From positions 62,001 to 126,000 of the forward strand of contig DASXKV010000018.1 of NCBI GenBank assembly GCA_036496605.1: a stretch of 64,000 nt of DNA, given 5' to 3'. The translations under genes were made by a program, and so were the position numbers. Below are positions 13,065 to 28,760 of this stretch, one piece after another; the stretch's first letter is position 1, and each line of letters starts with the position of its first letter. The notes below the pieces were generated by a model. That model was not told the DNA's origin and searched no databases. It worked only from the letters and a program-made list of their open reading frames with translations. The stretch comes from Gemmatimonadaceae bacterium. Its GTDB lineage: Bacteria; Gemmatimonadota; Gemmatimonadetes; Gemmatimonadales; Gemmatimonadaceae.

Positions 13065-14999
13065 TCATTCGAGAAGGCTCCGCACAACTTGCAGCAGGAC
13101 CTTCGGCAAATGATCAGGGCGAGGCAGGATCTCGTATCCCGCCGGCCCAAAGATCCTTTTCAGATAGGCCGAGTCCTCGTGATCAACCGTTAGGCAAAAC
13201 GGAAACACGTCGCGCGCGCGCGCCTCGTTGATCGCCTGGCGCGAGTCCTCGATTCCGTACTGGCCCTGATACGTGTCGACGTCGTTCGGTTTGCCGTCGG
13301 AGAGGATCAGGAGCAGCCGATGCCCGGCGCTCTGGGCGTCGAGGAGCGCCGTTGCATGACGGATGGCGGCGCCGAGGCGGGTATTCGCGTCGGGCGCGAG
13401 CGCGGCGATTCGGCTGCGCACTGTCGGCCCGTTACGCTCCGCGAACCCCTTGATCGTGCGTAACTGCACGCTCCGCGCACCTTTTCCGGAGAACGCGAGC
13501 ATCGCATAACGATCGCCCAGCGCGTCGAGCGCCTCGGCCGCGATGAGGAGCGCTATTTTTTCGACGTCGATGACCTGCAGCGTCTTCGTCACCAGCGTAT
13601 CGGTCGATCCACTGACATCGACGAGGAGCATGATCGCGAGCTCGCGGCGCGCCGGACGAACAGCGACGTACAGCCGATCGTCGATGGTATGGCCGGTGCG
13701 AGCGTCGACGAGCGCCCGGACGCACGCAGCGAGGTCGAGCTCATCGCCTTCGCGCTGACGCGGCACGCGAGTTCGCCGGGCACGGAGCCGCTCGAAGCGC
13801 TCGCGCACGTGCCTAACGAGCGCGGCGTGCTCCTTGAGCGTGGCCGTCGCCCAATCCGGAGACGCCTCGCGCGCCGGACGCGCGCGAACGATCACGCTGT
13901 CCCGCCGGTATTGGTGGCTCGCCGCGTCCCACTCCGGATACACGACGTCGTCGCGCGTGAGCGGCTCGATCGCGTCAGGGCCAGCGGCGGACGCGCCTGT
14001 TCCAGAGAGCGCTTCGTCGTCCGGCTGCGGCGAGCTGCCGATGTCGTCGTCCTCGGCGATTCCCCGCTGCTGCTCGACCACTCCCGCTTGCGGCGCGGGC
14101 TGCTCGGGCTCGACCCCACTCTCGGCGGGGACCGGCCTCGGTCGCCCCAGCTGCTCTGCCCCTGCAAGCTCGACGAGATTGAGCAGCCGGTTGTTCATGA
14201 GTGAGCTCTCACTCGATCCTCCGGGCGCCAACACTCCGGGACCCGGTGGCAGGACGCGTCCCCAGATGCCCACGGGCGGCACGCCACGATAGCGCTCGTT
14301 GACGATTCGCAATCGCGCCGCGGTCTCACGAGCCCAGGCGGCAGATTCCTCCGGCGAGGCGGAGCTCAACGCTGGCGGTGGCGCCGTCGGGTCGGCAGCG
14401 AGCAGTTGCCTAACGAAATGCTCCACGTCGCGCTCGGCTCCGGCCAGTGCCTCGAGCACTGGCCGTCGCGCGAGGGCGTCGGCGCGCGCCGCGACCAGGG
14501 CCGGAACCAGGTTGCGTACATCGTGCGCGATCGCCGCGTCGATCGTCGCGCTCTCGCGGAGCAGGAACAGGTCGCGTTCGAGTGAGTCGTTCAACCGCGC
14601 CGCGGCGGTCGCGGTGCCCCGTACGACACGCTCGGCTTGCTCGATGGCGATCAACCGATAGCGCGCGATCGCGACGTCGCGTCCAGACGCTGCGTCCATC
14701 GCCGACGGCAAGCGTAGCGACTCGCCGTCGCTGGCGGGCACACTCTCCGGCTCTTTGAATGGGCTCACCGAGCGCCACGCTCGCGTCAGCCAACCGACGC
14801 GTCGGCGCTCGGGAACGGCGATCGGTATGTGCTTGCCGTACATCGCGGCAAGGAGTAACTCGAGTCGCCGGCGAACGGTGTCCAGCTCGACGATCGGTCG
14901 CGCGCGGCGCCACGGCAGTGTCGGCAGGGGGATGGGCAATCGCGCAGCAAGCCTTGCCGCCGCGCGTCGCGCGCGAATCAGCCGGCGCCGTGATCGCAT
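13065..14999 (-). CDS. VWA-domain protein of the NorD/CbbO/CoxE class
   Basis: This 644-residue protein has a C-terminal von Willebrand A domain beginning about residue 454, with the metal-binding motif DVSGS at 461-465, later T in DANTRLGAAIRHA, and D in LILSDGKPND. The long N-terminal part is Arg/Ala-rich and helical, with an acidic linker. NorD, CbbO and CoxE act with MoxR-type AAA+ ATPases as chaperones that remodel or load metals into large enzymes. The partner ATPase lies 46 nt upstream. No nitric-oxide reductase or RuBisCO genes occur in the window, so a CoxE-like role for the molybdenum hydroxylase next door is more attractive. That is inference. Confidence 0.82.
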   Translation of the reverse strand: MRSRRRLIRARRAAARLAARLPIPLPTLPWRRARPIVELDTVRRRLELLLAAMYGKHIPIAVPERRRVGWLTRAWRSVSPFKEPESVPASDGESLRLPSAMDAASGRDVAIARYRLIAIEQAERVVRGTATAAARLNDSLERDLFLLRESATIDAAIAHDVRNLVPALVAARADALARRPVLEALAGAERDVEHFVRQLLAADPTAPPPALSSASPEESAAWARETAARLRIVNERYRGVPPVGIWGRVLPPGPGVLAPGGSSESSLMNNRLLNLVELAGAEQLGRPRPVPAESGVEPEQPAPQAGVVEQQRGIAEDDDIGSSPQPDDEALSGTGASAAGPDAIEPLTRDDVVYPEWDAASHQYRRDSVIVRARPAREASPDWATATLKEHAALVRHVRERFERLRARRTRVPRQREGDELDLAACVRALVDARTGHTIDDRLYVAVRPARRELAIMLLVDVSGSTDTLVTKTLQVIDVEKIALLIAAEALDALGDRYAMLAFSGKGARSVQLRTIKGFAERNGPTVRSRIAALAPDANTRLGAAIRHATALLDAQSAGHRLLLILSDGKPNDVDTYQGQYGIEDSRQAINEARARDVFPFCLTVDHEDSAYLKRIFGPAGYEILPRPDHLPKVLLQVVRSLLE

Positions 15000-15045
15000 A
15001 ACGACGGAGACCGGAAGAGGAGTGCGCGCGTCGCGCGCGCGAGGA

Positions 15046-15882
15046 TCATATCGTCGCCGCTACCAGGTCATCTATTGCGGCGAGCAAGTCAGGATCGTCT
15101 GTGAGCGGCGCGACGAGTGCCGAGCGACACGCCTGCGCCGCTGGAATTCCGCCGGCGATGAGACGCGCCGTCGCGACGAGAGGCCGCGTCCCCGGGCCTT
15201 CGGTGAGACCTTGATCGCGCAGACGGCGCACCTTCCGCGCGAGGTCCACGAGAGCGGTCGCCGTTGCCCGCTTCACGCCGCTCTCATGCGCCACGATCTC
15301 ACTCTCGGTCGCCGGTGGCGGAAAGTCGAACTCCAACGCGACGAAGCGCTGCCGTGTGCTCGGCTTGAGATCTTTCACGGCGTGCTGATATCCGGGATTG
15401 TACGAGATCACGAGCTGGAATCCCGGCGCGGCTTCCAGCAACTCTCCGGTCTTCTCGATCGGCAAGATGCGCCGGTCGTCAGCGAGTGGGTGCATGACGA
15501 CGACCGTGTCCTGACGCGCTTCGACGACCTCGTCGAGATAGCAGATCGCGCCGAGCCTAACGGCCGTCGTGAGCGGTCCGTCGATCCAGATTGTCTCGCC
15601 GCCTCGGATGAGGTAGCGTCCGGTGAGATCGGCGGCGGAGAGGTCGTCGTGGCAGGCGATCGTGACGAGCGGTCGTCCGAGCACGTGCGCCATGTGCTCG
15701 ATGAATCGCGTTTTGCCGCATCCCGTCGGCCCCTTGAGCATCACCGGCAGGCCGCGCTTATGGCAGGCGGTGAAGGTCGGGATCTCGTCGTGAATCGGGA
15801 CGTAGTACGGCACCTCCGCACCCGGCCAGCGCACGCCGTTTTCCAGGGAGTCGGAGTGAGAGATTGAACGGGTCAGGGTCAT
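15046..15882 (-). CDS. MoxR-type AAA+ ATPase (NorQ/CbbQ/CoxD class)
   Basis: A 278-residue ATPase with Walker A GPTGCGKT at 51-58 and Walker B AICYLDEV at 112-119. It has the CbbQ/NorQ lid sequence SYNPGYQHAVKDLKPSTRQRF and a sensor region further on. The family forms hexamers that work with a VWA partner, encoded immediately downstream, to activate metalloenzymes. It follows the molybdenum hydroxylase gene by 61 nt in the same direction and is probably co-transcribed. The full length and intact nucleotide site argue for an active enzyme. The target enzyme is inferred from position only. Confidence 0.85.
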   Translation of the reverse strand: MTLTRSISHSDSLENGVRWPGAEVPYYVPIHDEIPTFTACHKRGLPVMLKGPTGCGKTRFIEHMAHVLGRPLVTIACHDDLSAADLTGRYLIRGGETIWIDGPLTTAVRLGAICYLDEVVEARQDTVVVMHPLADDRRILPIEKTGELLEAAPGFQLVISYNPGYQHAVKDLKPSTRQRFVALEFDFPPPATESEIVAHESGVKRATATALVDLARKVRRLRDQGLTEGPGTRPLVATARLIAGGIPAAQACRSALVAPLTDDPDLLAAIDDLVAATI

Positions 15883-15943
15883 TTGTATACAACTTAATGG
15901 CGCGATGAAAACCGGAACCCCCGCCGTTCACGCGGTTCCCGCC

Positions 15944-18151
15944 TCAGGGAATGGCAATGGGTAGACGCCTAACGCGTTTGCCTGTCGCCGCGAAGATCGC
16001 GTTCGTCACCGCCGGAGCGATGCTCGGCAGCGTGCCCTCGCCCATCCCGTGCGGCGACTCTTCGCCGCTGTCCACGAAGTGCACCTCGATGCGCGGAACA
16101 TCGCGCATCCGCAGTACTGGGTAATCGTGAAAGTTCGATTGCACGACGCGGCCGGCCTCGACTGTGATTTGCTGATACAGGGCCGCCGAGAGACCGAAGA
16201 TCACGGCGCCCTCCACCTGGGCGCGCGCTCCGCTTGGGTTCACGACGAGTCCCGGATCTGCGGCCGTGACGACGCGGTGCACCCGGACATCGCCGTTCGG
16301 CGCGACCTCCACCTCGGCGACGTGCGCAACGTACGCACCGTTCGAGTAGGAGCCCGCGATGCCACGGCCGCGCCCAGCGGGCAGCGGCTTTCCCCAATCA
16401 CTCTGCTTGGCGGCGACGCGGAACACTACGGCGAGCCGGCCAGTGTCATAGCGCGAATCGTAGAAGGGCAGCTGTCGCGCGGGCTCGAGCATCGAGAGCT
16501 GGAACTCGAGCGGATCGCGCTTGGCGGCATGCGCCAGCTCGTCAATCATGCTCTGCGTCACGAACACGGTCGCCGACGGCTCGACGGCGCGCCACTGGCC
16601 ACGCGGAATCTTCGACTGCAGCGCGGTGTAGCCGATGCGCATATTCGGCGCAACGCTCGCCGGCAGATCGTACGGCTCGAGCTCTCCAGGATCGAGAAGC
16701 GCGGTCTGATTCGGTCCGGAGCTCCAGCGCAGGTAGTGCCCGCGCGACGCATTCACGAGATGCTGCGACCAGGCGACGATGAGCCCATCCCTGTCGAGAC
16801 CAGCACGCATCAGGTGATAACCGGCTGGCCGATAGTATCCGTGGCGCATGTCGTCTTCGCGCGTGAACAGTACCTGAACCGGCCTCCGGCTCGCCTTCGC
16901 CAGATATGCCGCCTCGGCGACGAAATCGGCGTAGAAGCGCCGGCCGAACCCGCCGCCCATGCGGAGGACGTGGACCGCTACGTCGTTAGGCGACAGTCCG
17001 GTCGCATCCGCGGCGGCGCGCCGAGCGCCTTGCGGGTTTTGCGTCGGCGCCCAGACTTCGACGTGTTTGCCGTCGACGCGTGCCGTGCAATTCATCGGCT
17101 CCATCGTGGCGTGCGCGAGGAGCGGCAGTTCATACACGGCCTCGAGCTTCATTGCCGCGGCCGCGAACGCATCGTCGAAATGACCGTCGTCCCGCCTGAC
17201 GAGTTTCGGCGCGCCGGCCGCGATCTGCACCGCCCGCTCGCGCATTGCGGCCGTGCTCTCGGTCTCACCACCGCGCGTATCCCACTCGACCGACAACGCT
17301 CGCCGCCCCTGCATCGCCGCCCACGTCGAATCGGCGAGGACCGCGACGCCGTTAGGCATCTTCGGGCTGTTCTCCTCGAACTCGGGCAGCGCATCCGCGT
17401 CGATGGGGATTACCGCGCGGACGCCGGGCACCTTGCGCGCCGCGGCGTCGTCGACGCGAACCACGCGTCCGCCGAACACCGGGCTGCGTTCGATCGACGC
17501 GAAGAGCATTCCCGGCAGCCGGACGTCGATGCCGAAGGTCGTTCGTCCGGTCACGATCGCCGGTGTATCGACACCAGCACGCGGAGTTCCAATAATGCGA
17601 AACTCATGGCGAGACTTGAGCGGCACATCGGGCGGCGCCTGCTGCGCGCTGGCGTCAGCGGCCAACGCACCGTAGGTTGCCATGCGCCGTGTGGCAGCGT
17701 GCCGGACAACGCCATCGCGGGTGACGCACTGCTCGACCGGCACATGCCAGCGATTGGCTGCGGCCCTAACGAGCATCAGACGCGCGGCGGCACCGGCGCG
17801 CCGGAGCGGCAGCCACGATGTGCGCACGACCGCGCTGCCACCCGCGTATTGGGGACCGTAGCGCGACTCGTCGAGATCCGCCTGCTCGACGCGGATCTCG
17901 TTCCAGTCCGCATCGAGCTCCTCGGCAACGAGCATCGCGATCGCCGTCCGCGATCCCTGTCCCATTTCGGGCCGCGGTACGACGACGACTACCGTCGAGT
18001 CGGGCTCGATGCGAAGGAAAGCGTTAGGCGACCACGACCCGCTCTCGTTGTCCTGAGCGCTCGAAGACTCGAAGCGAAAGCCTACGGCCAACCCACCGAG
18101 CGCGGTGAGCCCGACCGACAGAAAGTCACGACGGTTGAACGCATTCGACAC
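15944..18151 (-). CDS. Xanthine-dehydrogenase-family molybdopterin subunit, IorB-like, Tat-exported
   Basis: The 735-residue product has a Tat signal (R7-R8-DFLS then a hydrophobic run) and two-part molybdopterin-binding organisation as in isoquinoline 1-oxidoreductase beta subunit. Landmarks are VPRPEMGQGSRTAIAMLVAEELDADW, GRRFYADFVAEAAYLAK, GQWRAVEP and, near the end, GMGEGTLP. E705 of that last motif is the expected catalytic base. Such enzymes hydroxylate N-heterocycles or oxidise aldehydes and need a small [2Fe-2S] subunit. None is encoded in the window, nor is an FAD subunit. The gene starts 4 nt after the LeuD-like gene and precedes the MoxR/VWA pair. Substrate unknown. Confidence 0.87.
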   Translation of the reverse strand: MSNAFNRRDFLSVGLTALGGLAVGFRFESSSAQDNESGSWSPNAFLRIEPDSTVVVVVPRPEMGQGSRTAIAMLVAEELDADWNEIRVEQADLDESRYGPQYAGGSAVVRTSWLPLRRAGAAARLMLVRAAANRWHVPVEQCVTRDGVVRHAATRRMATYGALAADASAQQAPPDVPLKSRHEFRIIGTPRAGVDTPAIVTGRTTFGIDVRLPGMLFASIERSPVFGGRVVRVDDAAARKVPGVRAVIPIDADALPEFEENSPKMPNGVAVLADSTWAAMQGRRALSVEWDTRGGETESTAAMRERAVQIAAGAPKLVRRDDGHFDDAFAAAAMKLEAVYELPLLAHATMEPMNCTARVDGKHVEVWAPTQNPQGARRAAADATGLSPNDVAVHVLRMGGGFGRRFYADFVAEAAYLAKASRRPVQVLFTREDDMRHGYYRPAGYHLMRAGLDRDGLIVAWSQHLVNASRGHYLRWSSGPNQTALLDPGELEPYDLPASVAPNMRIGYTALQSKIPRGQWRAVEPSATVFVTQSMIDELAHAAKRDPLEFQLSMLEPARQLPFYDSRYDTGRLAVVFRVAAKQSDWGKPLPAGRGRGIAGSYSNGAYVAHVAEVEVAPNGDVRVHRVVTAADPGLVVNPSGARAQVEGAVIFGLSAALYQQITVEAGRVVQSNFHDYPVLRMRDVPRIEVHFVDSGEESPHGMGEGTLPSIAPAVTNAIFAATGKRVRRLPIAIP

Positions 18152-18155
18152 GTAC

Positions 18156-18710
18156 TCATACTACGCCTCGTGGCGCGACACGCGTGTTCGAATCGCGTAA
18201 GCTTTGTGCCCGCCTCCCACGCAGATAATCCACGAGGCCGCCCGCGTTCAGAATGTCGTGCAAAAAGGGCGGCATCGGCCGAGCAACCATGACGGCGCCG
18301 CTGCGTGCGTTCTCGACTTCGCCGCGATCGTCGCCGAATCGAAGTGTGATCGTGTCACCCTCGGCGATGCTGGCTGTGTCACACTCCGCCGGGATGAGGC
18401 CGTTGTTGATCGCGTTGCGATAGAATGTCCTCGCGAAGCTCTGCGCGACGACGGCGCGGATTCCCGCCGCCAGGATGACGGTCACCGCAATCTCCATCGC
18501 CGAGCCGCAGCCGAAGTTCCGGCCCGCGACGAGAATATCCCCCGGGCGCACACTGTCGGCGAACCGCGGATCGAGCGTCTCCAGCAGATAGCGAGCGAGC
18601 AACTTCTCGTCGAGCGTATCGCGCTTTCGGGTGGACGCGATGATGTAATCGGTGTTGACGTCGTCGCCAAGGCGCCGTGCGCGGCCAGTCAACTCGCGTG
18701 TCGAGAGCAT
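18156..18710 (-). CDS. leuD: 3-isopropylmalate dehydratase-family small subunit (aconitase swivel domain)
   Basis: A 184-residue swivel-domain protein with GRARRLGDDVNTDYIIAS at the N-terminus, GRNFGCGSAMEIAV (about 64-77) and ARTFYRNAINNGLIP. These are all hallmarks of the small subunit that completes the active site of a LeuC-type dehydratase. The loop after DYIIAS reads TRKRDTLD rather than the YLVY or YLRM-like sequences that fix isopropylmalate specificity. The substrate may therefore be a different 2-hydroxy acid (homocitrate, dimethylmalate, citramalate or similar). It begins 3 nt after the large-subunit stop. The rest of the operon is not leucine biosynthetic. Confidence 0.85.
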   Translation of the reverse strand: MLSTRELTGRARRLGDDVNTDYIIASTRKRDTLDEKLLARYLLETLDPRFADSVRPGDILVAGRNFGCGSAMEIAVTVILAAGIRAVVAQSFARTFYRNAINNGLIPAECDTASIAEGDTITLRFGDDRGEVENARSGAVMVARPMPPFLHDILNAGGLVDYLRGRRAQSLRDSNTRVAPRGVV

Positions 18711-18713
18711 ATG

Positions 18714-19991
18714 CTAACCAATCGATGCCGGGTCCGTGATCCGTCCAGTGACTGCCGCGGCGGCGCATGCTTCCGGCGACGCGAGATAGATCGACGCCGT
18801 CGCGTTTCCCATGCGTGCCTTGAAGTTGCGATTCGCGGTCGAGAGCACGTTGACGCCATCGCCGGGGATTGCGCCGCTCGTGCCGCAACACGCGCCACAG
18901 CCAGGCGTCGTGATCACCGCGCCCATGGCGGCGAGCTTCGCGAGTGTTCCATCCTCCAGAAGACGCGAATACACCTCGCGAGACGCCGGCGTGACGACGA
19001 GCTGAACGCCCGGCGCGACACGGCTGCCACCACGCTCGAGGACCGCCAGCGCGGCGTGGAAATCGGAGACACGTCCGCCAGTGCACGTGCCGAGAAACAC
19101 CATGTGGATCGGCGTACCAATAGCTTCCTCGAGCGCCACGACGTTCTCGGGTGCGTGAGGGAGCGCAACCACCCGTTTCGCCCGCGATAAATCGACGACC
19201 AGTGTGCGTGCATAACGAGCACCCGGATCGGACTCGACTGCCCCCGGCTGCCGATCCGTTCGGCCGGCAAGGTACGCAGCGGTCGCGTCGTCGTGTGGGA
19301 AGATCGCCGCTTTGGCGCCTGCTTCCACCGCGAGGTTGGAGACGACCAGACGCTCCTCGAGGCTGAGCGCGCCTAACGCATCGCCGTGGAGCTCCAACGT
19401 CTGGTAGTTCGCGCCCTCCGCTCCCAGCTCGGCGACGAGCGCGAGCGCGATGTCCTTCGCGGTCAGTCCCTTCGGCCGTTCGCCCGTGATGTCGATTCTG
19501 ATCGTATCGGGGACACGCAGCCAGATCTCGCCCATAATCATCGCCGCGGCGATGTCCGACGAGCCGACGCCCGTAGCGAATGCACCCAGTGCACCCGCGG
19601 TCACCGTGTGGCTATCCGCACCGATCACGAGATCGCCCGCGACGACTCGGCCTTGCTCGACCGCGATCTGATGACTGATGCCTGCGCCGACGTCGTGCAC
19701 TTCGATGCCATGCTGCCGTGCGAACGCGCGAACGCGATCGTGAAAGCCAGCAGTCTTTGCCGTCGAGGGCGGCGCGTAGTGGTCGAGCGCGAACATCACC
19801 CGCGCCGGATCGAAGACTCGCTTGCCGTTCATGCGCTCGAAATAATCGATCGCCATTGGCGCCGACGCATCGGTACCGAGCACCAAATCGACGTTGCAGA
19901 CCACCACGTCTCCAGCGTGCGAGTCTCGACTCGCGTGCTCCGAGAGAATCTTCTCACTGACGGTCTTCGCGCTCGACATCGGGACGCTCAC
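18714..19991 (-). CDS. leuC: 3-isopropylmalate dehydratase / homoaconitase-family large subunit
   Basis: A 425-residue iron-sulfur dehydratase of the short LeuC2/HacA type. Cluster ligands are C303 (GTCTGGR), C365 and C368 (PGCGACCG). Other conserved segments are DHYAPPSTAKTAGFHDRVR, GADSHTVTAGALGAFATGVGSSDIAAAM and NRNFKARMGN. It dehydrates and rehydrates a branched 2-hydroxy di- or tricarboxylic acid together with the adjacent small subunit. ATG 19991 overlaps the symporter stop by 4 bp; a second ATG at 19979 is possible. Neighbours (symporter, aminotransferase, RraA-like aldolase) point to a degradative pathway rather than leucine synthesis. Confidence 0.88.
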   Translation of the reverse strand: MSVPMSSAKTVSEKILSEHASRDSHAGDVVVCNVDLVLGTDASAPMAIDYFERMNGKRVFDPARVMFALDHYAPPSTAKTAGFHDRVRAFARQHGIEVHDVGAGISHQIAVEQGRVVAGDLVIGADSHTVTAGALGAFATGVGSSDIAAAMIMGEIWLRVPDTIRIDITGERPKGLTAKDIALALVAELGAEGANYQTLELHGDALGALSLEERLVVSNLAVEAGAKAAIFPHDDATAAYLAGRTDRQPGAVESDPGARYARTLVVDLSRAKRVVALPHAPENVVALEEAIGTPIHMVFLGTCTGGRVSDFHAALAVLERGGSRVAPGVQLVVTPASREVYSRLLEDGTLAKLAAMGAVITTPGCGACCGTSGAIPGDGVNVLSTANRNFKARMGNATASIYLASPEACAAAAVTGRITDPASIG

Positions 19992-21340
19992 CGCTGATCG
20001 CTCGTCGCTGAACGCTCGCCGCTCGACTCACCGTCGACGTCGAGACGCGGCAGCTGCCACACCGAGAAATCAGCGGGCGGCGTTGTCGGCGTCGCCGCTG
20101 GAGTCTCAGTTCGAGCAATCCACGTTGCGCCCACGAGATTGCTCATCGTGTTGACGAGCGAGCGACACATGTCGAGCGGACGATCGATGGCTGCCACGAG
20201 CGCGATCCCTGCCGCCGCATGCGAGCCGAGTCCGATCGCGTCGAGGACGATGAGCGTCGTCACGAGCGAGCTACCCGGGACGCCCGCCCCTGCGAACGCA
20301 GCCGCCGTCGACGCCAGAACGATCGCCAGCATCGCTCCCGCACCGAGTTCCATTCCGTAGAGTCGCGCCAGAAAAATTGCCGTCACCGCTTTGTAAACCG
20401 CCGACCCGTTCTTGTTGAGCGTCGCGCCAGCGGGGAGCAGGAAGCTCGCGACCTCGTTCGAGACACCGAGCCGTGTCGTGGCCGCCTCCATACTCACCGG
20501 CAGCGTTGCGCTCGACGACGCCGTCGAGAAGGCGAGGAGGAGCGGCTCCGATGCACCGCGAAAAAAGCTCGTCAGGCTCTCGCGTGCGCCGAAGCGCAGG
20601 GCGGGAAGAAGGGTCACGGCGACGTGAATCGCCATCGCGATCACGGCCACGAGCGCGAACCCGACGAGTCCGAGCAACAATCCGGCTCCGGTGCGCGCGA
20701 TTGCACCGGCTACAAGCAGAAACACGGCGGGCGGCGCAAGCCACATGAGCCAGCGTACGACGACCATGGAGACGTCGTTCACCGCCGTGAAAAATGCCAC
20801 GAGCGGCTCTCGGCGATTCAGGGGCAGGATCGTTGCCGCCGCGCCGAAGATGCAGACCGCGATCATGAGCGGCAGCAGGTCACCTTGCGCCGCCGCGGCG
20901 ATCGGGTTCTGCGGCACGAGCTCCACGACGGCGGTTACCAGCCCTGGGGCAGCCGTTGCGGCCGCGGGCACGGACGGCTGATTCGCCAGCGCCGCACGCG
21001 TGGCCTGATCCACGTTTACGCCGACGGGTGAGAGCACGGCGACGGTCAGACCAATAGCGGCCGCGATCAGCGTCGTGAAGGCGAAGTATGCCAGCGTCTT
21101 GCCCCCGATCGCACCGAGGCGGCGCACGTCGCCTAACGACGCAACGCCGACGAAGAGGCTCGCGATCACGAGTGGCACCACCACCATCGTCACGAGCCGG
21201 ATGAAGATTGTGCCCAGCGGCTCGGCCGCGATGACGGCGCGGGAAAGTCCGGCGCTCACCGGACCCGGCGCGCGGGCAGCGGCGCCAACGATCGCGCCGC
21301 CCAGGAGTCCGACGGCAATCTTCGTCTCCAACCTCATCAC
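19988..21340 (-). CDS. Dicarboxylate/amino acid:cation symporter (DAACS, GltP/DctA type)
   Basis: A 450-residue membrane carrier. It shows the serine-rich re-entrant loop (FSTASSSATLPVSMEA) and the helix pair LPAGATLNKNGSAVYKAVTAIFLARLYG. The second re-entrant loop is AGAGVPGSSLVTTLIVLDAIGL, all diagnostic of the glutamate/aspartate/C4-dicarboxylate symporters. It should bring an acidic amino acid or dicarboxylate in with Na+ or H+. It overlaps the aminotransferase stop and the LeuC-like start by 4 bp each, so it belongs to the same transcript and probably delivers the pathway substrate. Confidence 0.9.
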   Translation of the reverse strand: MMRLETKIAVGLLGGAIVGAAARAPGPVSAGLSRAVIAAEPLGTIFIRLVTMVVVPLVIASLFVGVASLGDVRRLGAIGGKTLAYFAFTTLIAAAIGLTVAVLSPVGVNVDQATRAALANQPSVPAAATAAPGLVTAVVELVPQNPIAAAAQGDLLPLMIAVCIFGAAATILPLNRREPLVAFFTAVNDVSMVVVRWLMWLAPPAVFLLVAGAIARTGAGLLLGLVGFALVAVIAMAIHVAVTLLPALRFGARESLTSFFRGASEPLLLAFSTASSSATLPVSMEAATTRLGVSNEVASFLLPAGATLNKNGSAVYKAVTAIFLARLYGMELGAGAMLAIVLASTAAAFAGAGVPGSSLVTTLIVLDAIGLGSHAAAGIALVAAIDRPLDMCRSLVNTMSNLVGATWIARTETPAATPTTPPADFSVWQLPRLDVDGESSGERSATSDQR

Positions 21341-22467
21341 GCCACCCCGGCGGCGTTAGGCAGCGCCGCCAGCGCATCGCCGAGCGCCGCCAAGGTTCGC
21401 TCGATGTCGGTTGCGCGGATGTCGCCCATGTGGCCGATGCGGAATCCACGCGGCTCGAACCTGCCCATCGCCGCCGCCGTGAGAATTCCCCTCGACCTGA
21501 GCGCGTCGCGTAGCGTCTTCGGATTCACGGCATCGGGAAGCGCGATCGCCGTGACCGTCGGCGACAGCGCACCGAGCGTCGGACACTGCAGCTCGAGGCC
21601 CAGACGCGTGACGCCATGCCTAACGGCTGCCGCGTTCGTCTCGTGGCGACGCAACACCGAATCAAACCCCTGCTCGTGAATCATGCGCAGCGCTTCGGCA
21701 ACCTGGAGAACAAGGTGCACCGGCGTCGTGCCGGGCGTCTCCGGGCGCGGCTTGCCGAGGGTCTCGCGGATCGGCCGGAAATCCCAGTAGCTCCGCGGCA
21801 ATCGCGCGGACTCCGTCGCTTTCCATGCGCGCTCGCTGAGCACCGCGAACGCCAGCCCCGGGCTCGACATGAGACACTTCTGCGACGACGTGATCGCGAC
21901 ATCTACGCCCCATTCGTCGAACGCGAAAGGCATTCCGCCCAGCGCGGACACTCCGTCGACGAATAGCATCGCACTCCGGGACGACACCACTCGGCCGATC
22001 GCCGCGATATCGTTGCGCACAGCCGTCGACGTGTCGCAGTAGGCCACGAGCACCGCCCGGATCGACCGGTCGCCTTCGAGAAACCCGGCAATCTCATCGG
22101 GCTCCACGTCGCTCGCCCAATCCCGCGCAACGCGATGCACGACGATGCCGTACGTCTCCGCGATCTTCGCCCACATCTCGCCGAACGCGCCGTTGCAGCA
22201 GGCGACGATCGCGTCGCCCGGCGAGAGCAGATTGCACAGCGACGCCTCGAGCGCGCCGCGCCCCGTCGTGTGCACGGGCAGCACCGGCTGCCGCGTGCCG
22301 AAGATTGGTCCGATCAGCTCGAGCATCTCCGACAGCTCGGCGGAGAACTGCGGCGTCCGATGATGCAGCATTGCCCGCGCGCCCGCGCGCCGCACACGCT
22401 CGGGCACGCGCGTCGGACCCGGCGTCATCAACAGATATGGAACGTCATCCGGCCCAAGCGACGTCAC
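21337..22467 (-). CDS. Class V aminotransferase, alanine/serine-glyoxylate type
   Basis: A 376-residue PLP enzyme. It begins LLMTPGPTRVPERVR and has HTTGRGALEASLCNLLSPGD (cofactor phosphate loop), D171 in FVDGVSALGG and the Schiff-base lysine K197 in ITSSQKCLMSSPG. It resembles alanine-glyoxylate, serine-glyoxylate and ureidoglycine-glyoxylate aminotransferases. In this operon it may convert an imported amino acid to a 2-oxo acid, or recycle glyoxylate or pyruvate released by the RraA-like lyase. It overlaps both neighbours by 4 bp. Confidence 0.88.
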   Translation of the reverse strand: MTSLGPDDVPYLLMTPGPTRVPERVRRAGARAMLHHRTPQFSAELSEMLELIGPIFGTRQPVLPVHTTGRGALEASLCNLLSPGDAIVACCNGAFGEMWAKIAETYGIVVHRVARDWASDVEPDEIAGFLEGDRSIRAVLVAYCDTSTAVRNDIAAIGRVVSSRSAMLFVDGVSALGGMPFAFDEWGVDVAITSSQKCLMSSPGLAFAVLSERAWKATESARLPRSYWDFRPIRETLGKPRPETPGTTPVHLVLQVAEALRMIHEQGFDSVLRRHETNAAAVRHGVTRLGLELQCPTLGALSPTVTAIALPDAVNPKTLRDALRSRGILTAAAMGRFEPRGFRIGHMGDIRATDIERTLAALGDALAALPNAAGVA

Positions 22468-23138
22468 GCGATCACGCCCTTCCGCCGCAGCAGATCGTCG
22501 ACGTCGCCGCGAATGAGCATTCCCTCATTGATCTCCGCGACGCGCTTTCGCTCGCGCTCCAGCAGTTCGTCGAGGAGGTGAAGCACTTCCTCGGCGTGAT
22601 CGCGCGGAACGACCGCGACGCCGTCGTCGTCACCGACGATAATGTCGCCGGGCATCACAACCGTGCCGCCGCACGCAATCGGAACGTTGACCTCACCCGG
22701 ACCGTCCTTATCGCAGCTGCCGGGCGTCACCGCACGACTGAACGCGGGGAAATGCAGTGCTGCAATTCCCTCGACATCTCGAATCGCGCCGTCGACGACG
22801 ATGCCCCCGAGTTTTTTCGCCGCCGCCGTGCGACACATCAGATCGCCAAAGACGGCGGTCGTCGTGCTTCCGACCGTGTTGACGACGACGACATCGCCCG
22901 GCTGCGCGACGTCGAGCGCTTTGTGAACCATGAGATTGTCCGCGGGCCGGCAGAGCACCGTCACCGCCGGACCGTACAAGGGAAATCCGCTGCGTGACCG
23001 GATTCCCGGATCCATGAAATTGAACCGCCCCATGGCATCGGCGACGTTCGCGCTCGCCGCTCCCTTGAAGCGCGCAATGAGACCGTCACTGAGTCGCGGC
23101 GGGGTTGGGAGTATTCGAAACCCGAGCTTGCCGGCCAT
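22464..23138 (-). CDS. RraA-family protein, putative 4-hydroxy-4-methyl-2-oxoglutarate-type aldolase
   Basis: The product has 224 residues from ATG 23138; the frame is open to 23210 but those residues (SSTNHERPF...) look non-coding. The D-x20-R-D signature of class II pyruvate aldolases is present: the D of FGDLMCR, then 20 residues, then RD of GAIRDVEG. This separates lyases/oxaloacetate decarboxylases of the HMG/CHA aldolase family from true RraA RNase E inhibitors. It would cleave a 4-hydroxy-2-oxo acid to pyruvate plus a second carbonyl. The C-terminal helix with GMLIRGDVDDLLRRKGV is longer than in E. coli RraA. It overlaps the aminotransferase start by 4 bp. Confidence 0.83.
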   Translation of the reverse strand: MAGKLGFRILPTPPRLSDGLIARFKGAASANVADAMGRFNFMDPGIRSRSGFPLYGPAVTVLCRPADNLMVHKALDVAQPGDVVVVNTVGSTTTAVFGDLMCRTAAAKKLGGIVVDGAIRDVEGIAALHFPAFSRAVTPGSCDKDGPGEVNVPIACGGTVVMPGDIIVGDDDGVAVVPRDHAEEVLHLLDELLERERKRVAEINEGMLIRGDVDDLLRRKGVIA

Positions 23139-23219
23139 GTCGATGGCTAGGTGGCTGGTGAATGGTCGTTCGTGATTGGTAGATGATACCAGCCGACCGC
23201 GACGCGGCAACCCGCTGGA

Positions 23220-24065
23220 TTACGTCCCCGTTTCCTTCGGATGAGTCCCGAGCGCGGCGAGCGAGTCGTCCGCGAAGCGATTCACTAACTCGACCTGCTC
23301 GGTCGCCGAGGCCTTCGCAACGATCTCCGACGCCGTGAGCACTGCGCCGAACCAGTCGGCCGTATGCCAGTGGCCGATCCCGAGCGGTGCCACGGCAAAT
23401 GTTGGTCGCGGAGATGGTCCGACATAGAAATACGGCTCGGCGTAACTCGTGTCTCCTGGCGACATTCCGATTCCGATGGTTTGAAGCGGACCGCCGGAGC
23501 AGCTCACCAGCGTCGCGATATCGAAGTGGTGCGGCCAGCAGCGGACGTCGCTCGCGCCGGGCGTCTGAGCTCGACGCCCCTCGAGCAGGGTGTGTGCGTT
23601 GCGATACCACCGCGCCAGCTCCTCTACTGCTTCGCGTTGCCTAACGAAGTGGCCGCCAGAGTCCGTCGAATGCGGCGCGATGGAGAAGTGCAACGACGTG
23701 TGCAGCGCTGCTGGGTCGCGGCCCGCGTCGCCAATCCGGGCCCGTAGCCAGGCGATTGCGTCTTTTCGCGTTCGTTCAACGAGCGGAAGGATCGCTGTGT
23801 CGTCACCGAATGCATCGAGAAAGAGCAGCGTGAGATCCGCCATTCGCAGGCCGACACGAAACGGGCGCGGGGCATCGACGATCTCGGTTTCCAGTGCGTC
23901 CGCGCTCACGAGCCACGTCATGCTCGTGTGACTGTCGTCCGACCGCGAGGGTATGTACGAGGCGCCGACGAGCGCCAGCAGCAGTGCGGCGTGATGCGCT
24001 GTCTCGCGCGCGTCGCCGAGCGATTTCGGCGAAACCGTACCAACGCGTTCCCACTCGATTGTCAT
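23220..24065 (-). CDS. Conserved protein of unknown function with a WPHHFD motif
   Basis: I do not recognise this 281-residue protein. It has no signal peptide or membrane segments. Notable parts are DVRCWPHHFDIATL and GDTSYAEPYFYVGPSPRP, followed by GHWHTADWFGAVL. The clustered His, Asp, Trp and Tyr suggest a metal or small-molecule site. The N-terminal half is helical (ARETAHHAALLLALVGASYIPSRSDDSHTSMTW). It is the first gene of the minus-strand operon and ends 10 nt before the open frame of the RraA-like gene (about 80 nt before the start I prefer), so a role in that pathway is likely. Its start codon lies at the end of a REP-like repeat (24068-24083). Confidence 0.75.
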   Translation of the reverse strand: MTIEWERVGTVSPKSLGDARETAHHAALLLALVGASYIPSRSDDSHTSMTWLVSADALETEIVDAPRPFRVGLRMADLTLLFLDAFGDDTAILPLVERTRKDAIAWLRARIGDAGRDPAALHTSLHFSIAPHSTDSGGHFVRQREAVEELARWYRNAHTLLEGRRAQTPGASDVRCWPHHFDIATLVSCSGGPLQTIGIGMSPGDTSYAEPYFYVGPSPRPTFAVAPLGIGHWHTADWFGAVLTASEIVAKASATEQVELVNRFADDSLAALGTHPKETGT

Positions 24066-24139: not shown

Positions 24140-25606
24140 TTACGGATTGCGGTCGAGGCACCCGTGGAAATTCGGGTTGTTGTTCTCCTCGTCCTTCGGC
24201 ACCGGCAGGTTTACGTCCGTGCCGTACGTTCCACCACGATAGTGGGTCCCCGCCGGGAACGAGTTCCCAACGTTGTACCACGTCTTGTAGGGATCCTGCC
24301 TGACGAGTCGGCGCAGATCGCCCAACCGCTCGCCGCGGCTGAACGTCCAGAATGCTTTCTCGCGGAACAGCTGCGCAACGCGCGCGCTGTCGGTTCCCGG
24401 ATCGGTAAGCGCCGGAAGCGCGTTGGCCGCCACCGTCACCGTGCCGAGCGTCTGGGCCGCCGCGCGCAGCCCGTTCAGGGTCGCCAACGTTCCCGTCGTC
24501 GCCGTTGCGTAATTACCAGACAGGAACGCCGCCTCGGCCTCGATCAGTCGAGCATCGATGCCATTGGTCACGTCGACCGGCGTCTCCTGACCCCAGATCG
24601 ACGTCGTGCGCGAGAACGTCAGACCGTCCTGCGACTTCGTCGTGTCCTTGCCGTTCGTGCTGATCGTGTACTTCGACGGCACGCGCGGATCTTTCGATGA
24701 GAAGAACGGAGTCTGCCCCGTGACGAGAATGTCGTGCGCGTTTCCCTCGAGGCTGTCGCCGACGTTGTACCGACGACCGCTGTTCGGCTGGCCCCAGATC
24801 GCGTTGCTTCCCGAGCTCGCCGCGTACGTGTGCTGGTACTTGAACGACGTCGGAATGCCGTTCATAAGCGCCGCCGCCGCAGCGACGTTTGCCGCGCCGC
24901 CGAGGCCTAACAAGGCGCGAGCTTTCGTGATCTTGATTGCGCGGCCGACATCGCTCGCGGTGTCCGCGACGGCCAGCAGCTTGTATCCCGAGTCCAGCGT
25001 CGAGATTGCCGTCGTGAAGATCGCAGAAACCGGCTGCGGCGTGCCGTAAACGATCGTCGTCGGCGAGGTCGCCGTCGACGCGTCGCTCAACGGAATGCCG
25101 TTGCAGAAGTCCGACGCGAGCTGCATTTCCGCATTCCCACGTGCGAGATACAGCTCGGCGATCTGCACCGTCTGCGTCGGATTCCACTTCACCATCGCCG
25201 GCAGCGCCTGATCTACTGCTGTACGGACGCGCTCCAACTTGCGGAAGTCGAACGTCACCGTGGCGTTATTGAGCTGAACTCGGCGCTCGTCGAGCTCGTC
25301 GTTCTGCACGAAGGTGGACGACGTACCCCACTCGTCGGCGAGCAAGCCGCCGGTGAGCCAGGTGCTTTCCTGTCCGTTCGTGTTGTCACCACCCGTCGCG
25401 AAGCGCCAGCGCTGGAGCGCGCCAATGCGCAACGCGTTCGCGCCTTCGGGCGAGTCGAGATCTGACGGCGAGATCAGATCTGGGTCGGTTGCCTGGAGGA
25501 GGCTATCGGTGCACGCCGTCGCGCCGAGTGCAACCAGAGTCGCGAACGACCCGAGCAACACCAGCGCGCGCGTCCGCGCAATGCCTCGTAGTCTCGATAT
25601 ATGCAT
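24140..25606 (-). CDS. SusD/RagB-like lipoprotein
   Basis: A 488-residue protein with a signal ending LVALGATAC (lipid-modified Cys) followed by TDSLLQATDPDLISPSDLDSPEGANALR. The family's helical repeats are visible, with the C-terminal signature VAQLFREKAFWTFSRGERLGDLRRLVRQ. It starts 10 nt after the receptor stop, making a two-gene SusCD operon on the minus strand. It should bind the nutrient at the surface and pass it to the barrel. Substrate unknown. It is closed by the terminator at 24082-24116. Confidence 0.87.
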   Translation of the reverse strand: MHISRLRGIARTRALVLLGSFATLVALGATACTDSLLQATDPDLISPSDLDSPEGANALRIGALQRWRFATGGDNTNGQESTWLTGGLLADEWGTSSTFVQNDELDERRVQLNNATVTFDFRKLERVRTAVDQALPAMVKWNPTQTVQIAELYLARGNAEMQLASDFCNGIPLSDASTATSPTTIVYGTPQPVSAIFTTAISTLDSGYKLLAVADTASDVGRAIKITKARALLGLGGAANVAAAAALMNGIPTSFKYQHTYAASSGSNAIWGQPNSGRRYNVGDSLEGNAHDILVTGQTPFFSSKDPRVPSKYTISTNGKDTTKSQDGLTFSRTTSIWGQETPVDVTNGIDARLIEAEAAFLSGNYATATTGTLATLNGLRAAAQTLGTVTVAANALPALTDPGTDSARVAQLFREKAFWTFSRGERLGDLRRLVRQDPYKTWYNVGNSFPAGTHYRGGTYGTDVNLPVPKDEENNNPNFHGCLDRNP

Positions 25607-25616
25607 TTATGAATTC

Positions 25617-28600
25617 TCAGAAGCCGAGGTTGAAGCGAACCGTGTAGTACGTCGGGATACCGAGCGTCTGGAACTCCTCGCCCGGGGCGTTGGGCGAATC
25701 GCCGGCAAGACGATCGATTTCCGGATCGATGCCGCGATACTTCGTCCACAGGTGCAGGTTTCGCGCGGCGAAGTTGAGCGACGCGGACCGTGAGCGCAGA
25801 TACTTGCCGGCCCACACGTCAGGCAGATTCCACGTCGCCGTGAACTCACGCCACCGAATGAAGGAGGCGGGCTGGAAGAAGCCATCCAGCGTCTTCGACG
25901 GATCGTCGCGCGTGGCCACGACCATCGCCTGCTCCTCGAGCGACGCGCGCGGAACGAGCTTCCCGTTCACGACGTCTGCGTTCATCAAGCCGTCGCAGTT
26001 CTGGCGGCTGACGCAACGGATGCGCTCCGTGTTGTTGTACCACTTGTAACCACCCTTGTAGTCGAACAGCGACGCAAAGCGCAGGCGGTGACCAAAGAGG
26101 TCGATGCCCGGCTGGAGCGACGTGAGGTATCGCGGCGAGGAATAGCCGCGGAAGATCGGCTGCGAGCCGACGAACACCTCGTTCAGATTCGGATCGTCGC
26201 TGTGGACGAGCACACCGTCTCCGTTCTTGTCCTGCCAGCCAGTGATCGGCTGCGCCCAGAAGCCGAAGAGCGGATACCCGGCAACCGCGCGCCAGGTCGT
26301 GTTGATCTGCGGCGGCACTGGGCCAAGGCTCACCAGCTTGTTGTCGTTGATCGAGCCGCTGAGCGTGACGTCGAACGCGATGCGACGCGTGTCAAAGATC
26401 TGCGCGTTGAGCGCGAGCTCTTCACCCGCGTTCTTGACCGAACCGATGTTCTCCTTGACGGTGTTCGCGGCGCCCGCGGACGGGGCGACGATCGCGTCGA
26501 TGAGTGCATCCTTGGTCAGCTTGCTGTAGTACGTGAGCTCGGCGTGGAGGCGATGACCGATCAAGTCGGCATCGAAGCCACCCTCGAACTCGGTCGTGCG
26601 CTCCGGCTTGAGGTTCGGATTGCCAAGCGCGGTGAAGGTCGCACCGGCGATGTCCGTCTGCTTCAGGTTTCCGGTGACGCCGCTGAAATAACGGAGCGCA
26701 TCGTTCGATCCGGGCTGCACACCCGCGGCGCCGTACGCGGCGCGGAAGCGGAACTGATCCAGCCAGTGCGGCTTCGGGAAGAACGGCTCGTCCGAGGCCA
26801 GCCAGGAAACGCTCGCTTTCGGATAGAACACGCGCTGGAACTTCGTACCGAAGGCGCTGTTCTGGTCCGAGCGCACGGCGCCGGTCACGAACAGACGGTC
26901 GCGGAAACCAACTTGCTGTTCGACGAACACGCCGAAAGTTTTCGTCAGCGTCGTCGCCTCAGTCGCCGACTGCACGGCGCCCGAGTTGGGTGTCTGCGTG
27001 CCTGGGCTGAGCTGACTGCCAAACGCATCGTTCTGGTCGAGCTGATAGTTGACGAACTGTGCGCCGAACGTGGTCCGCGAGTTCAGCGTCGGCCTCGGAT
27101 TGAACGTCTCCGTGCTGCCGAGGTCGAACGAGAAGTTCCGGAGACCGGTGCGGTTGTCGTCCTTGAAGCCGAGGCGATACGTCGAGCTCACCGGTGGACC
27201 CTGGCCGTTGCGGTTCAGGTTCAGGTCGACGCGACTTGTGTAATCGAGACCGATGTTCGCGCGATTCTGCATCCAGCTGAATGGACGCCAGTTGGCGTTG
27301 CCGCTCGTGATGATGCGGTTGAGCCGCTGCTCGTTGAGCTCCTGGAAGGTGTAGCCAGGAGTCCACGCACGGTAACCGTGAAGTGGCGTGCCGAGACCGC
27401 TGACGGTTCCGTTGTTCACGTACCCCGCGCCACCGAAGATCTGCGACCCGATGCCCGCCGTCGCGTTCGACTCGGTTGCATAACGAGTATTGACGTGGAT
27501 CAGGTTACCGGTGAAGCCGAGGTCGAGCTTCGGCGAGACGGAGGTGTTGAGGTTCGACCTGAAGCTGTACTTGTACTGATCGTTAGGCCGCTGAACGTTG
27601 TCGGGCACGACGGTGCCGACGCTGTCGAAGCGCTGCCGCTCGAAATCGGGAAGCTTGAGCACGCCCATCTCGTCTTCGCGCTCACCCGAAACGAAGTAGC
27701 GGAGCGACTCCGAGCCGCCCTGCACGTTCGCGCCGAACTTGCTGCGGTGACCGACACCAATCGGTGTCGCGCTCGCATCGTGGAATGGGCTGTACTGCCT
27801 GAGGCTGTCGGGGATGCATGCGCCGGAAGCCACCACCGGCATCGAGCACTCCTTGTATGGGAAGGGCGCGGTTGCAGTCGGAGAGTGACCGGCGATCGTG
27901 TAGTTGTACGGATAGTCGCTGTTGTCCTGCAGCAGGCCGCCCTCGGCCCAGCCATTCCATCGCGCGGCGCCGGCGCGACCCTTCTTCGTCGTGATGACGA
28001 TGACGCCGTTGGCCGCATCGGTGCCGTACAACGTCGCCGCTGACGGGCCCTTCACGATCTCGATGTTCTCGATCTCGTCGGGGTTGATGTCGTTGGCGCG
28101 GTTCGGTGTCGCACCCCCTGTGAACAACGCCGTCGAGCTGGTGTTGCTCGTCATGCGGATGCCATCGATGATATAGATCGGATCGTTCGAGAGGCTGAGC
28201 GAGTTGTTGCCGCGGATACGCACGCGACCGCCGCCACCGACCTGCGATCCACCCGTGACCTGGACGCCCGGCGTACGAGCCGCGAGCACGTCCTGCACGT
28301 TGCTGATCGGCGACGTCTCCATGACCTTCGCCGCGTCGATGCTGCCGATGGCGTTGCCCAATTCCGAACGCCGCTGGTCGCCGGTCGCCGTCGTGACAAC
28401 TTCGGTGAGCTTGACAACGACAGGAACCATCGCGAAGTCGAGCGTCGCGGCCTCCGTGCCGCTTACCTGGACTGGCTTCTTCTGCTCTTCATAGCCAACG
28501 CGGAGCACGCGGACCGTGTAGCTGCCCGCCGGTACGTTGCGGATGTTGTAACGTCCGTCCTGTCCAGCCGTCGCGAACAGGCTCGTGCCGACGAGCACGA

Positions 28601-28760
28601 CGCGCGACTCTTGGAGCGGTTCACCACTGCCCGTCGCGGTGACGCGTCCGGTGATACTGGCCTGCTGTGCCTGTGCGACAGCGGCGCTGGCGGCGAGCAC
28701 TCCTAATGGAAGTGCACACCACGCCAGAAGCCGCCTCGCGACCGTGCGTGGAAGACCCAT
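25617..28760 (-). CDS. SusC/RagA-type TonB-dependent receptor
   Basis: A 1047-residue outer-membrane receptor. The signal peptide ends near AAVAQAQQ. A carboxypeptidase-regulatory-like domain follows (SITGRVTATGSGEPLQESRVVLVGT..., about 33-115). The plug has VAARTPGVQVTGGSQVGGGGRVRIRGNNSLS, a SusC-type IYIIDGIRM segment and KGPSAATLYGTDAANGVIVITTKKG. The barrel ends in YYTVRFNLGF. It is paired with the SusD-like lipoprotein immediately downstream. The 126-nt leader contains a short palindrome (28824-28841). Only one exact CGTTAGGC copy lies in this 3.1-kb gene. Confidence 0.93.
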   Translation of the reverse strand: MGLPRTVARRLLAWCALPLGVLAASAAVAQAQQASITGRVTATGSGEPLQESRVVLVGTSLFATAGQDGRYNIRNVPAGSYTVRVLRVGYEEQKKPVQVSGTEAATLDFAMVPVVVKLTEVVTTATGDQRRSELGNAIGSIDAAKVMETSPISNVQDVLAARTPGVQVTGGSQVGGGGRVRIRGNNSLSLSNDPIYIIDGIRMTSNTSSTALFTGGATPNRANDINPDEIENIEIVKGPSAATLYGTDAANGVIVITTKKGRAGAARWNGWAEGGLLQDNSDYPYNYTIAGHSPTATAPFPYKECSMPVVASGACIPDSLRQYSPFHDASATPIGVGHRSKFGANVQGGSESLRYFVSGEREDEMGVLKLPDFERQRFDSVGTVVPDNVQRPNDQYKYSFRSNLNTSVSPKLDLGFTGNLIHVNTRYATESNATAGIGSQIFGGAGYVNNGTVSGLGTPLHGYRAWTPGYTFQELNEQRLNRIITSGNANWRPFSWMQNRANIGLDYTSRVDLNLNRNGQGPPVSSTYRLGFKDDNRTGLRNFSFDLGSTETFNPRPTLNSRTTFGAQFVNYQLDQNDAFGSQLSPGTQTPNSGAVQSATEATTLTKTFGVFVEQQVGFRDRLFVTGAVRSDQNSAFGTKFQRVFYPKASVSWLASDEPFFPKPHWLDQFRFRAAYGAAGVQPGSNDALRYFSGVTGNLKQTDIAGATFTALGNPNLKPERTTEFEGGFDADLIGHRLHAELTYYSKLTKDALIDAIVAPSAGAANTVKENIGSVKNAGEELALNAQIFDTRRIAFDVTLSGSINDNKLVSLGPVPPQINTTWRAVAGYPLFGFWAQPITGWQDKNGDGVLVHSDDPNLNEVFVGSQPIFRGYSSPRYLTSLQPGIDLFGHRLRFASLFDYKGGYKWYNNTERIRCVSRQNCDGLMNADVVNGKLVPRASLEEQAMVVATRDDPSKTLDGFFQPASFIRWREFTATWNLPDVWAGKYLRSRSASLNFAARNLHLWTKYRGIDPEIDRLAGDSPNAPGEEFQTLGIPTYYTVRFNLGF

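Follow-up and report, generated by a model that had tools for sequence, protein, structure and literature searches.

Five adjacent genes on the minus strand of a 64,000-nucleotide window from a Gemmatimonadaceae bacterium (contig DASXKV010000018.1, positions 62,001 to 126,000, in a draft genome of 5.97 Mb) encode an RraA-type aldolase, a class V aminotransferase, an SDF symporter, and the LeuC-like and LeuD-like subunits of a putative aconitase-superfamily dehydratase (here LeuCD). These genes are a real cassette, found as a set in members of two phyla. On balance it is probable that they make up a self-contained catabolic unit for an acidic amino acid, likely a glutamate bearing a substituent or an unsaturation at C3/C4. 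The functional grouping had been proposed in an initial annotation made from the window sequence alone, and for the five genes it is borne out by their conserved linkage. Judging by the cassette, soil and lake bacteria probably feed on a modified acidic amino acid, for which no described pathway was found.

Conservation of the cassette

Complete five-gene sets were identified in 16 distinct genomes of Gemmatimonadota and Acidobacteriota, one of which has extra genes between LeuD and SDF. Among Gemmatimonadota, the phylum from which the relatives of the host were drawn, the RraA gene is present in 16 of 298 genomes. All five genes are contiguous in 10 of these (window included); in one the set is broken at contig ends and LeuC lies on a separate contig, and in one two MacB/FtsX (permease) genes are inserted between SDF and LeuC. 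The RraA-bearing genomes also include two remnants without LeuC and two distant RraA proteins. In Acidobacteriota the cassette is found in four records or genomes, on contigs of up to 100 kb.

In a collection of 85,000 genomes, 80 homologues of the aminotransferase were kept. RraA is adjacent to every homologue with more than 50% identity (11/11), and the other partners are present too where the contig is long enough. Beside homologues with less than 42% identity, the other four cassette genes are absent in all 69 cases. Gene order varies: most Gemmatimonadota have the SDF gene in third place, whereas it comes last in some of them and in most Acidobacteriota sets; the linkage has therefore outlived rearrangement. 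Carriers are scattered soil and freshwater bacteria.

Window proteins were assigned to families by Pfam and NCBIfam scans (significance threshold 0.001). In order of transcription the cassette consists of the RraA gene (22464..23210; RraA-like, 6.7e-46), a PRK06201 relative in the family of 4-hydroxy-4-methyl-2-oxoglutarate (HMG)/4-carboxy-4-hydroxy-2-oxoadipate (CHA) aldolases that is predicted to encode a 4-hydroxy-2-oxo acid aldolase; the class V pyridoxal phosphate (PLP)-dependent aminotransferase (21337..22467; Aminotran_5, 3e-20); the symporter of the GltP/DctA superfamily (19988..21340; SDF, 6.1e-95); the LeuC-like large subunit (18714..19991; Aconitase, 3.9e-89); and the LeuD-like small subunit (18156..18710; Aconitase_C, 1.5e-15). 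With a gene for a 281-aa protein that precedes RraA by 9 bp, these account for the six reading frames that had been placed at 18156-24065, all of which were recovered there. The RraA/aminotransferase, aminotransferase/SDF and SDF/LeuC pairs each overlap by 4 bp, and LeuC and LeuD are 3 bp apart. The earlier idea of a single tight operon agrees with the three overlaps but not with the limits drawn for it, as the same-strand run continues in both directions: upstream into a SusD/SusC-like pair (gaps of 74 and 10 bp) and downstream into a xanthine-dehydrogenase-like gene 4 bp behind LeuD. A promoter/terminator scan of the locus found fewer terminator-like sites than expected by chance.

Several variants of the locus were observed. 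Two Gemmatimonadaceae remnants (L032, L033) keep RraA, one of them with a truncated aminotransferase, and have no LeuC match at 1e-40; they represent apparent cassette decay. One relative has two additional genes between LeuD and SDF (L051:10897-12404), one resembling threonine/threo-3-hydroxyaspartate ammonia-lyase and the other small and lipoprotein-like. Genes for an M20 peptidase (L034:9844-11283, L035:8120-9556) and a CutC-family protein (L034:4450-5118, L035:14342-14986) flank the cassette in two relatives that belong to another family, a hint that a conjugate may be the source of the amino acid.

Counterparts in Burkholderiales

When the cassette LeuC was compared with plasmid sequences by tblastn, one match was obtained, at 50%, in Cupriavidus campinensis; RraA gave no match in plasmids at 1e-35. 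The Cupriavidus genes are in the order TctC, LeuC, LeuD, class I aminotransferase (nearest model PRK06107, aspartate transaminase) and RraA, and LeuC of this type is present in 2 of 399 Burkholderiales genomes. A second Burkholderiales genome contains LeuC, LeuD, a GltI-like binding protein, a class I aminotransferase, RraA and two ABC permeases. Its periplasmic binding protein scores 351 bits against the glutamate/aspartate (GltI) model, for which the cut-off is 375, and one permease is close to GltK (307 against 318 bits).

The LeuC proteins of the SDF-type and Burkholderiales-type sets form a single clade (support 0.86), whereas their aminotransferases (class I or class V) come from separate families and their importers (SDF, TctC or ABC) are not related to one another. 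Because the LeuCD of one clade and RraA are thus paired with non-homologous aminotransferases and importers, uptake, transamination, (de)hydration and aldol cleavage would appear to be parts of one pathway; this is the best evidence for it. One Burkholderiales LeuC of the cassette clade (L135:196-4954) is interrupted by a stretch of about 3.5 kb that is probably an insertion.

The symporter

In SDF transporters the Asp at GltPh position 394 contacts the alpha-amino group of the substrate and the Arg at 397 its side-chain carboxylate. Both are present in the cassette symporter, within an LDMxR signature (20162-20173) that is found in 18/18 cassette symporters and in GltP of Escherichia coli; E. 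coli DctA has MSEAR, a SEAR-type sequence without Asp at the alpha-amino position. Because all cassette symporters carry the signature, it favours an acidic amino acid rather than a dicarboxylate as the imported compound. Both had been suggested initially, and only the former is strengthened; the dicarboxylate option is weakened.

Like GltP-type glutamate/aspartate symporters, the cassette proteins have the DxxR signature and the HP1 serines, but the window protein scores 218 bits against a GltP cut-off of 638, and the Asp of NMDGT, which in this family belongs to the cation site, is lost. GltP, DctA and the closest solved homologue all have this Asp, whereas Asn or Ser is found in 18/18 cassette symporters (NKNGS in the window, residue 311, about 20408-20410). 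Cation coupling may therefore differ.

The aminotransferase and the aldolase

The aminotransferases conserve the PLP lysine (SQK) and an R[IV]GHMG motif. The nearest characterised model is BhcA, the class V aspartate-glyoxylate aminotransferase of the beta-hydroxyaspartate cycle, with about 37% identity but only 264 bits against a cut-off of 650. Operation of that cycle was rejected, since scores are far below the cut-offs and BhcB, BhcC and BhcD, which would complete the set, are absent from the cassette.

The RraA-like protein contains the D-x20-R-D lyase signature claimed for it (D123...R144 D145; 22776-22844), as does the HMG/CHA aldolase LigK/GalC (PDB 3noj), where it serves as the metal/substrate motif; both proteins belong to the RraA fold family. 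LigK cleaves both CHA and 4-hydroxy-4-methyl-2-oxoglutarate (PMC11951559). The cassette protein differs in scoring below the curated cut-offs of CHA aldolase-type equivalogs (163/179 and 142/304.5 bits), and no aromatic ring-cleavage genes are near the cassette. Among RraA orthologues the R-D pair is the sole invariant part of the signature.

The LeuCD-like dehydratase

Small subunits of isopropylmalate isomerases and aconitases have two substrate-binding regions, the highly conserved GSSRE motif and a recognition loop of five residues, which determines specificity (PMC7308503), and the general base of mitochondrial aconitase is Ser642 (PMC8184944). Every cassette LeuD, including both from Burkholderiales, has GSAME in place of GSSRE (18492..18506 in the window). 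The other LeuDs compared have GSSRE or GSGRE, three solved homologues have GSSRE, and a search with the GSAME pattern retrieves the LeuDs of the cassette but no other LeuD in the comparison. Ser642 of aconitase corresponds to the first Ser of GSSRE; this base is kept in the cassette (Ser70), but not the following Ser and Arg, in whose places stand Ala71 and Met72.

The initial annotation was also right that the loop of LeuD departs from that of isopropylmalate enzymes. It is one residue longer and basic, reading SxRK[KR] in the cassette (STRKRDT in the window, 18615..18635; SRRKK in one member), whereas the solved Methanocaldococcus homologues have loops of the YLVY and YLRT types. In the large subunit the sequence is GTC[TA][GA]G (GTCTGG in the window, 19074..19091), so that the Asn of the family motif GSCTN is lost (Gly in the window), an Asn that is present in 18 comparators. 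GSAME in every cassette LeuD, the longer RK[K/R] loop and the loss of the LeuC Asn are newly noted here. Outside the carriers, a GSAME-type LeuD was found in 0/381 genomes of the class of Desertibaculum and 0/392 of the phylum of L087; these searches covered two groups, most phyla not being sampled.

The features expected of an active enzyme of the aconitase superfamily (excluding AcnX) are intact: three cluster cysteines (Cys303 in GTCTGG, Cys365 and Cys368 in CGAC, 18888..18899), the catalytic Ser, the DSH motif and both Arg residues of NRNFxxRxG. Dehydratase chemistry is therefore probably retained, whereas one contact to a substrate carboxylate may have been lost, and the basic loop might now hold a more distant anionic group. 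Both the changed site and RraA-type cleavage would suit a 4-hydroxy-2-oxo diacid, which carries an oxalyl group where an alkylmalate has its vicinal carboxylate. Citramalate, 2,3-dimethylmalate and homocitrate, which had been proposed for assay, are less suited: they are classical vicinal dicarboxylates, and LeuD no longer has the Arg and Ser with which GSSRE binds substrates in the family. Better first candidates would be 4-hydroxy-2-oxo acids or the products of their dehydration. Tentatively, LeuCD may be a new aconitase-superfamily activity whose substrate is of the 2-oxoglutarate type, either a 4-hydroxy-2-oxo acid or the corresponding 3,4-ene, and not a vicinal dicarboxylate; it would belong to an undescribed modified-glutamate pathway assembled at least twice with differing aminotransferases and importers.

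Known dehydratases of the HacA/LeuCD-DmdAB type (PRK00402/TIGR02087) are likewise heterodimers with the cluster cysteines, catalytic Ser, NRNFxxRxG and DSH. The cassette enzyme differs from them by GSAME for GSSRE, GTCTG for GSCTN and the longer basic loop; it is below every equivalog cut-off, and its partner is an aldolase, not a synthase and a dehydrogenase. The sister group of the cassette LeuC clade consists of catabolic LeuCs linked to lyases of the phosphoenolpyruvate-mutase/isocitrate-lyase type (Pseudoroseomonas, Bradyrhizobium) or to the tricarballylate dehydrogenase TcuA (Hydrogenophaga). There, too, a dehydratase stands beside a C-C lyase or dehydrogenase, with a TctC uptake protein in two of the three, but GS[SG]RE is kept and no RraA lies within the stretch examined. 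Apparently another catabolic setting is found on haloarchaeal megaplasmids (L126:3801-7829, L127:3835-7841), where genes for a CoA-transferase, a 3-hydroxy-3-methylglutaryl-CoA-lyase-like protein, LeuC and LeuD are in a row, together with amidohydrolase and flavin oxidoreductase genes.

Three textbook enzymes, isopropylmalate isomerase, homoaconitase and aconitase, have a single substrate-binding motif in common. A conserved clade in which this motif is replaced, always beside an aldolase and an aminotransferase, provides a testable handle on substrate change in the superfamily. It is also a warning that annotation pipelines will label such genes leuC and leuD. No match to the five-gene combination or to methyleneglutamate degradation was found in the open-access literature.

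Proposed pathway and alternatives

From the gene complement we infer a substrate, an order of steps and a reaction for each enzyme. The SDF symporter would import an acidic amino acid, and the aminotransferase would move its amino group onto pyruvate, glyoxylate or oxaloacetate to give a 2-oxo acid. The LeuCD-like [4Fe-4S] enzyme might then hydrate a 3,4-ene, or shift a 3-hydroxyl, to yield a 4-hydroxy-2-oxo acid, from which retro-aldol cleavage by RraA would release pyruvate and a second 2-oxo acid; either product may act as amino acceptor. The substituent would decide the products: methyl would give two pyruvates, H pyruvate and glyoxylate, and carboxymethyl pyruvate and oxaloacetate, and we cannot choose among the three. 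A substituted acidic amino acid, the type of substrate initially envisaged, is jointly supported by transporter, aminotransferase, LeuCD and RraA. The specific case of 4-methylene- or 4-methyl-branched glutamates, degraded via 4-hydroxy-4-methyl-2-oxoglutarate to two pyruvates, is one candidate, though taken singly a rather improbable one.

Several observations weigh against a pathway of this kind. One Burkholderiales set uses TctC, whose family binds many carboxylates; at the first position of the RraA D-x20-R-D signature most orthologues have E, and two have G; some genomes retain RraA without the remaining cassette genes; and the carriers are almost all metagenome-assembled genomes. In addition, it is from the motif changes of LeuCD that we infer the shape of the substrate, and which carboxylate the lost Arg of GSSRE would bind is our assumption.

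The imported compound might instead be a tricarboxylic derivative of glutamate. The nearest named models of RraA, CHA aldolase/oxaloacetate decarboxylase, would suit such a substrate, as would the resemblance of the aminotransferases to aspartate-using ones, and the basic LeuD loop could hold a third carboxylate. However, GSSRE, which binds substrate in aconitases and isopropylmalate isomerases, is lost, and we know of no abundant amino acid of this kind, so that this alternative seems unlikely. A comparably low probability is given to a role of the aminotransferase in disposing of glyoxylate, with aspartate as donor and glycine as product as in BhcA, while RraA would cleave 4-hydroxy-2-oxoglutarate to pyruvate and glyoxylate. 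BhcA is indeed the best equivalog match of the aminotransferase, whose PDB relatives are glyoxylate aminotransferases, but the score is far too low, no BhcB-D gene is present in the cassette bar one ammonia-lyase of that family in one relative, the Burkholderiales sets use a class I aspartate-type enzyme instead, and the transporter resembles an amino-acid carrier.

Synthesis of an unusual glutamate, by aldol addition of two 2-oxo acids followed by dehydration and transamination, with SDF moving the product, is distinctly improbable. Aldolases of the RraA type are reversible, and LigK can make parapyruvate from pyruvate (PMC11951559); nevertheless the Burkholderiales sets hold importer genes (binding protein and permeases, or TctC), and the cassette flanks show no recurrent ligase, peptide synthetase or exporter.

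As for leucine, the initial annotation had noted that leuA and leuB are absent from the locus, as we confirm, and had regarded a second, canonical leuCD elsewhere as support for a separate role. A complete, canonical leuA-leuC-leuD-leuB cluster is present on another contig, and its LeuA, LeuB and LeuC are above curated cut-offs (one LeuA equivalog model; TIGR00169, TIGR00170). The genome encodes three LeuC/aconitase-type proteins, namely the cassette LeuC, one aconitase and the canonical LeuC; the cassette pair is thus neither the only LeuCD, which was part of what that annotation would have taken as a refutation, nor partnered by LeuA and LeuB. Nor does it resemble homoaconitase, scoring 365/550 and 132/230 bits against the HacA and HacB cut-offs, with no lysine genes nearby. 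A second leucine- or lysine-type LeuCD with its neighbours there by chance is therefore hardly credible: the subunits do belong to subfamilies shared with isopropylmalate isomerase and homoaconitase, but against this stand the separate leuABCD, the lack of an adjoining leuA/leuB or homocitrate synthase gene, scores under every equivalog cut-off, strict linkage to RraA, aminotransferase and symporter, and the loss of GSSRE from LeuD.

Neighbouring genes

The 281-aa gene (23220-24065), initially counted as an operon member of unknown function, occurs in no other cassette and has homologues in 10 of 199 other genomes that are not linked to the cassette; it was rejected as a member. The protein itself has no Pfam or NCBIfam match at 0.001, but is a divergent DUF5996 relative, 6/10 homologues matching that family at E<=1 (best 1.2e-5). 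Its AlphaFold model is confident (pLDDT 92.9) and has no PDB match at E<=0.001, and thus gives no function. Conserved WPHHFD and PGD/PY motifs are present, and the homologues are scattered in the phylum.

The xanthine-dehydrogenase-like, CbbQ, VWA and SusCD neighbours were likewise rejected, as they are not conserved beside other cassettes. Directly upstream (24140-28760, minus strand) are a SusC/TonB-receptor-like gene and a gene for a SusD-like lipoprotein of 488 aa, which has no Pfam match at 0.001. Downstream (13065-18151, minus strand), a molybdopterin-binding xanthine-dehydrogenase-like subunit with a Tat-like leader is followed by a CbbQ-type AAA ATPase and a VWA protein, an arrangement as in CoxD/CoxE-type maturation.

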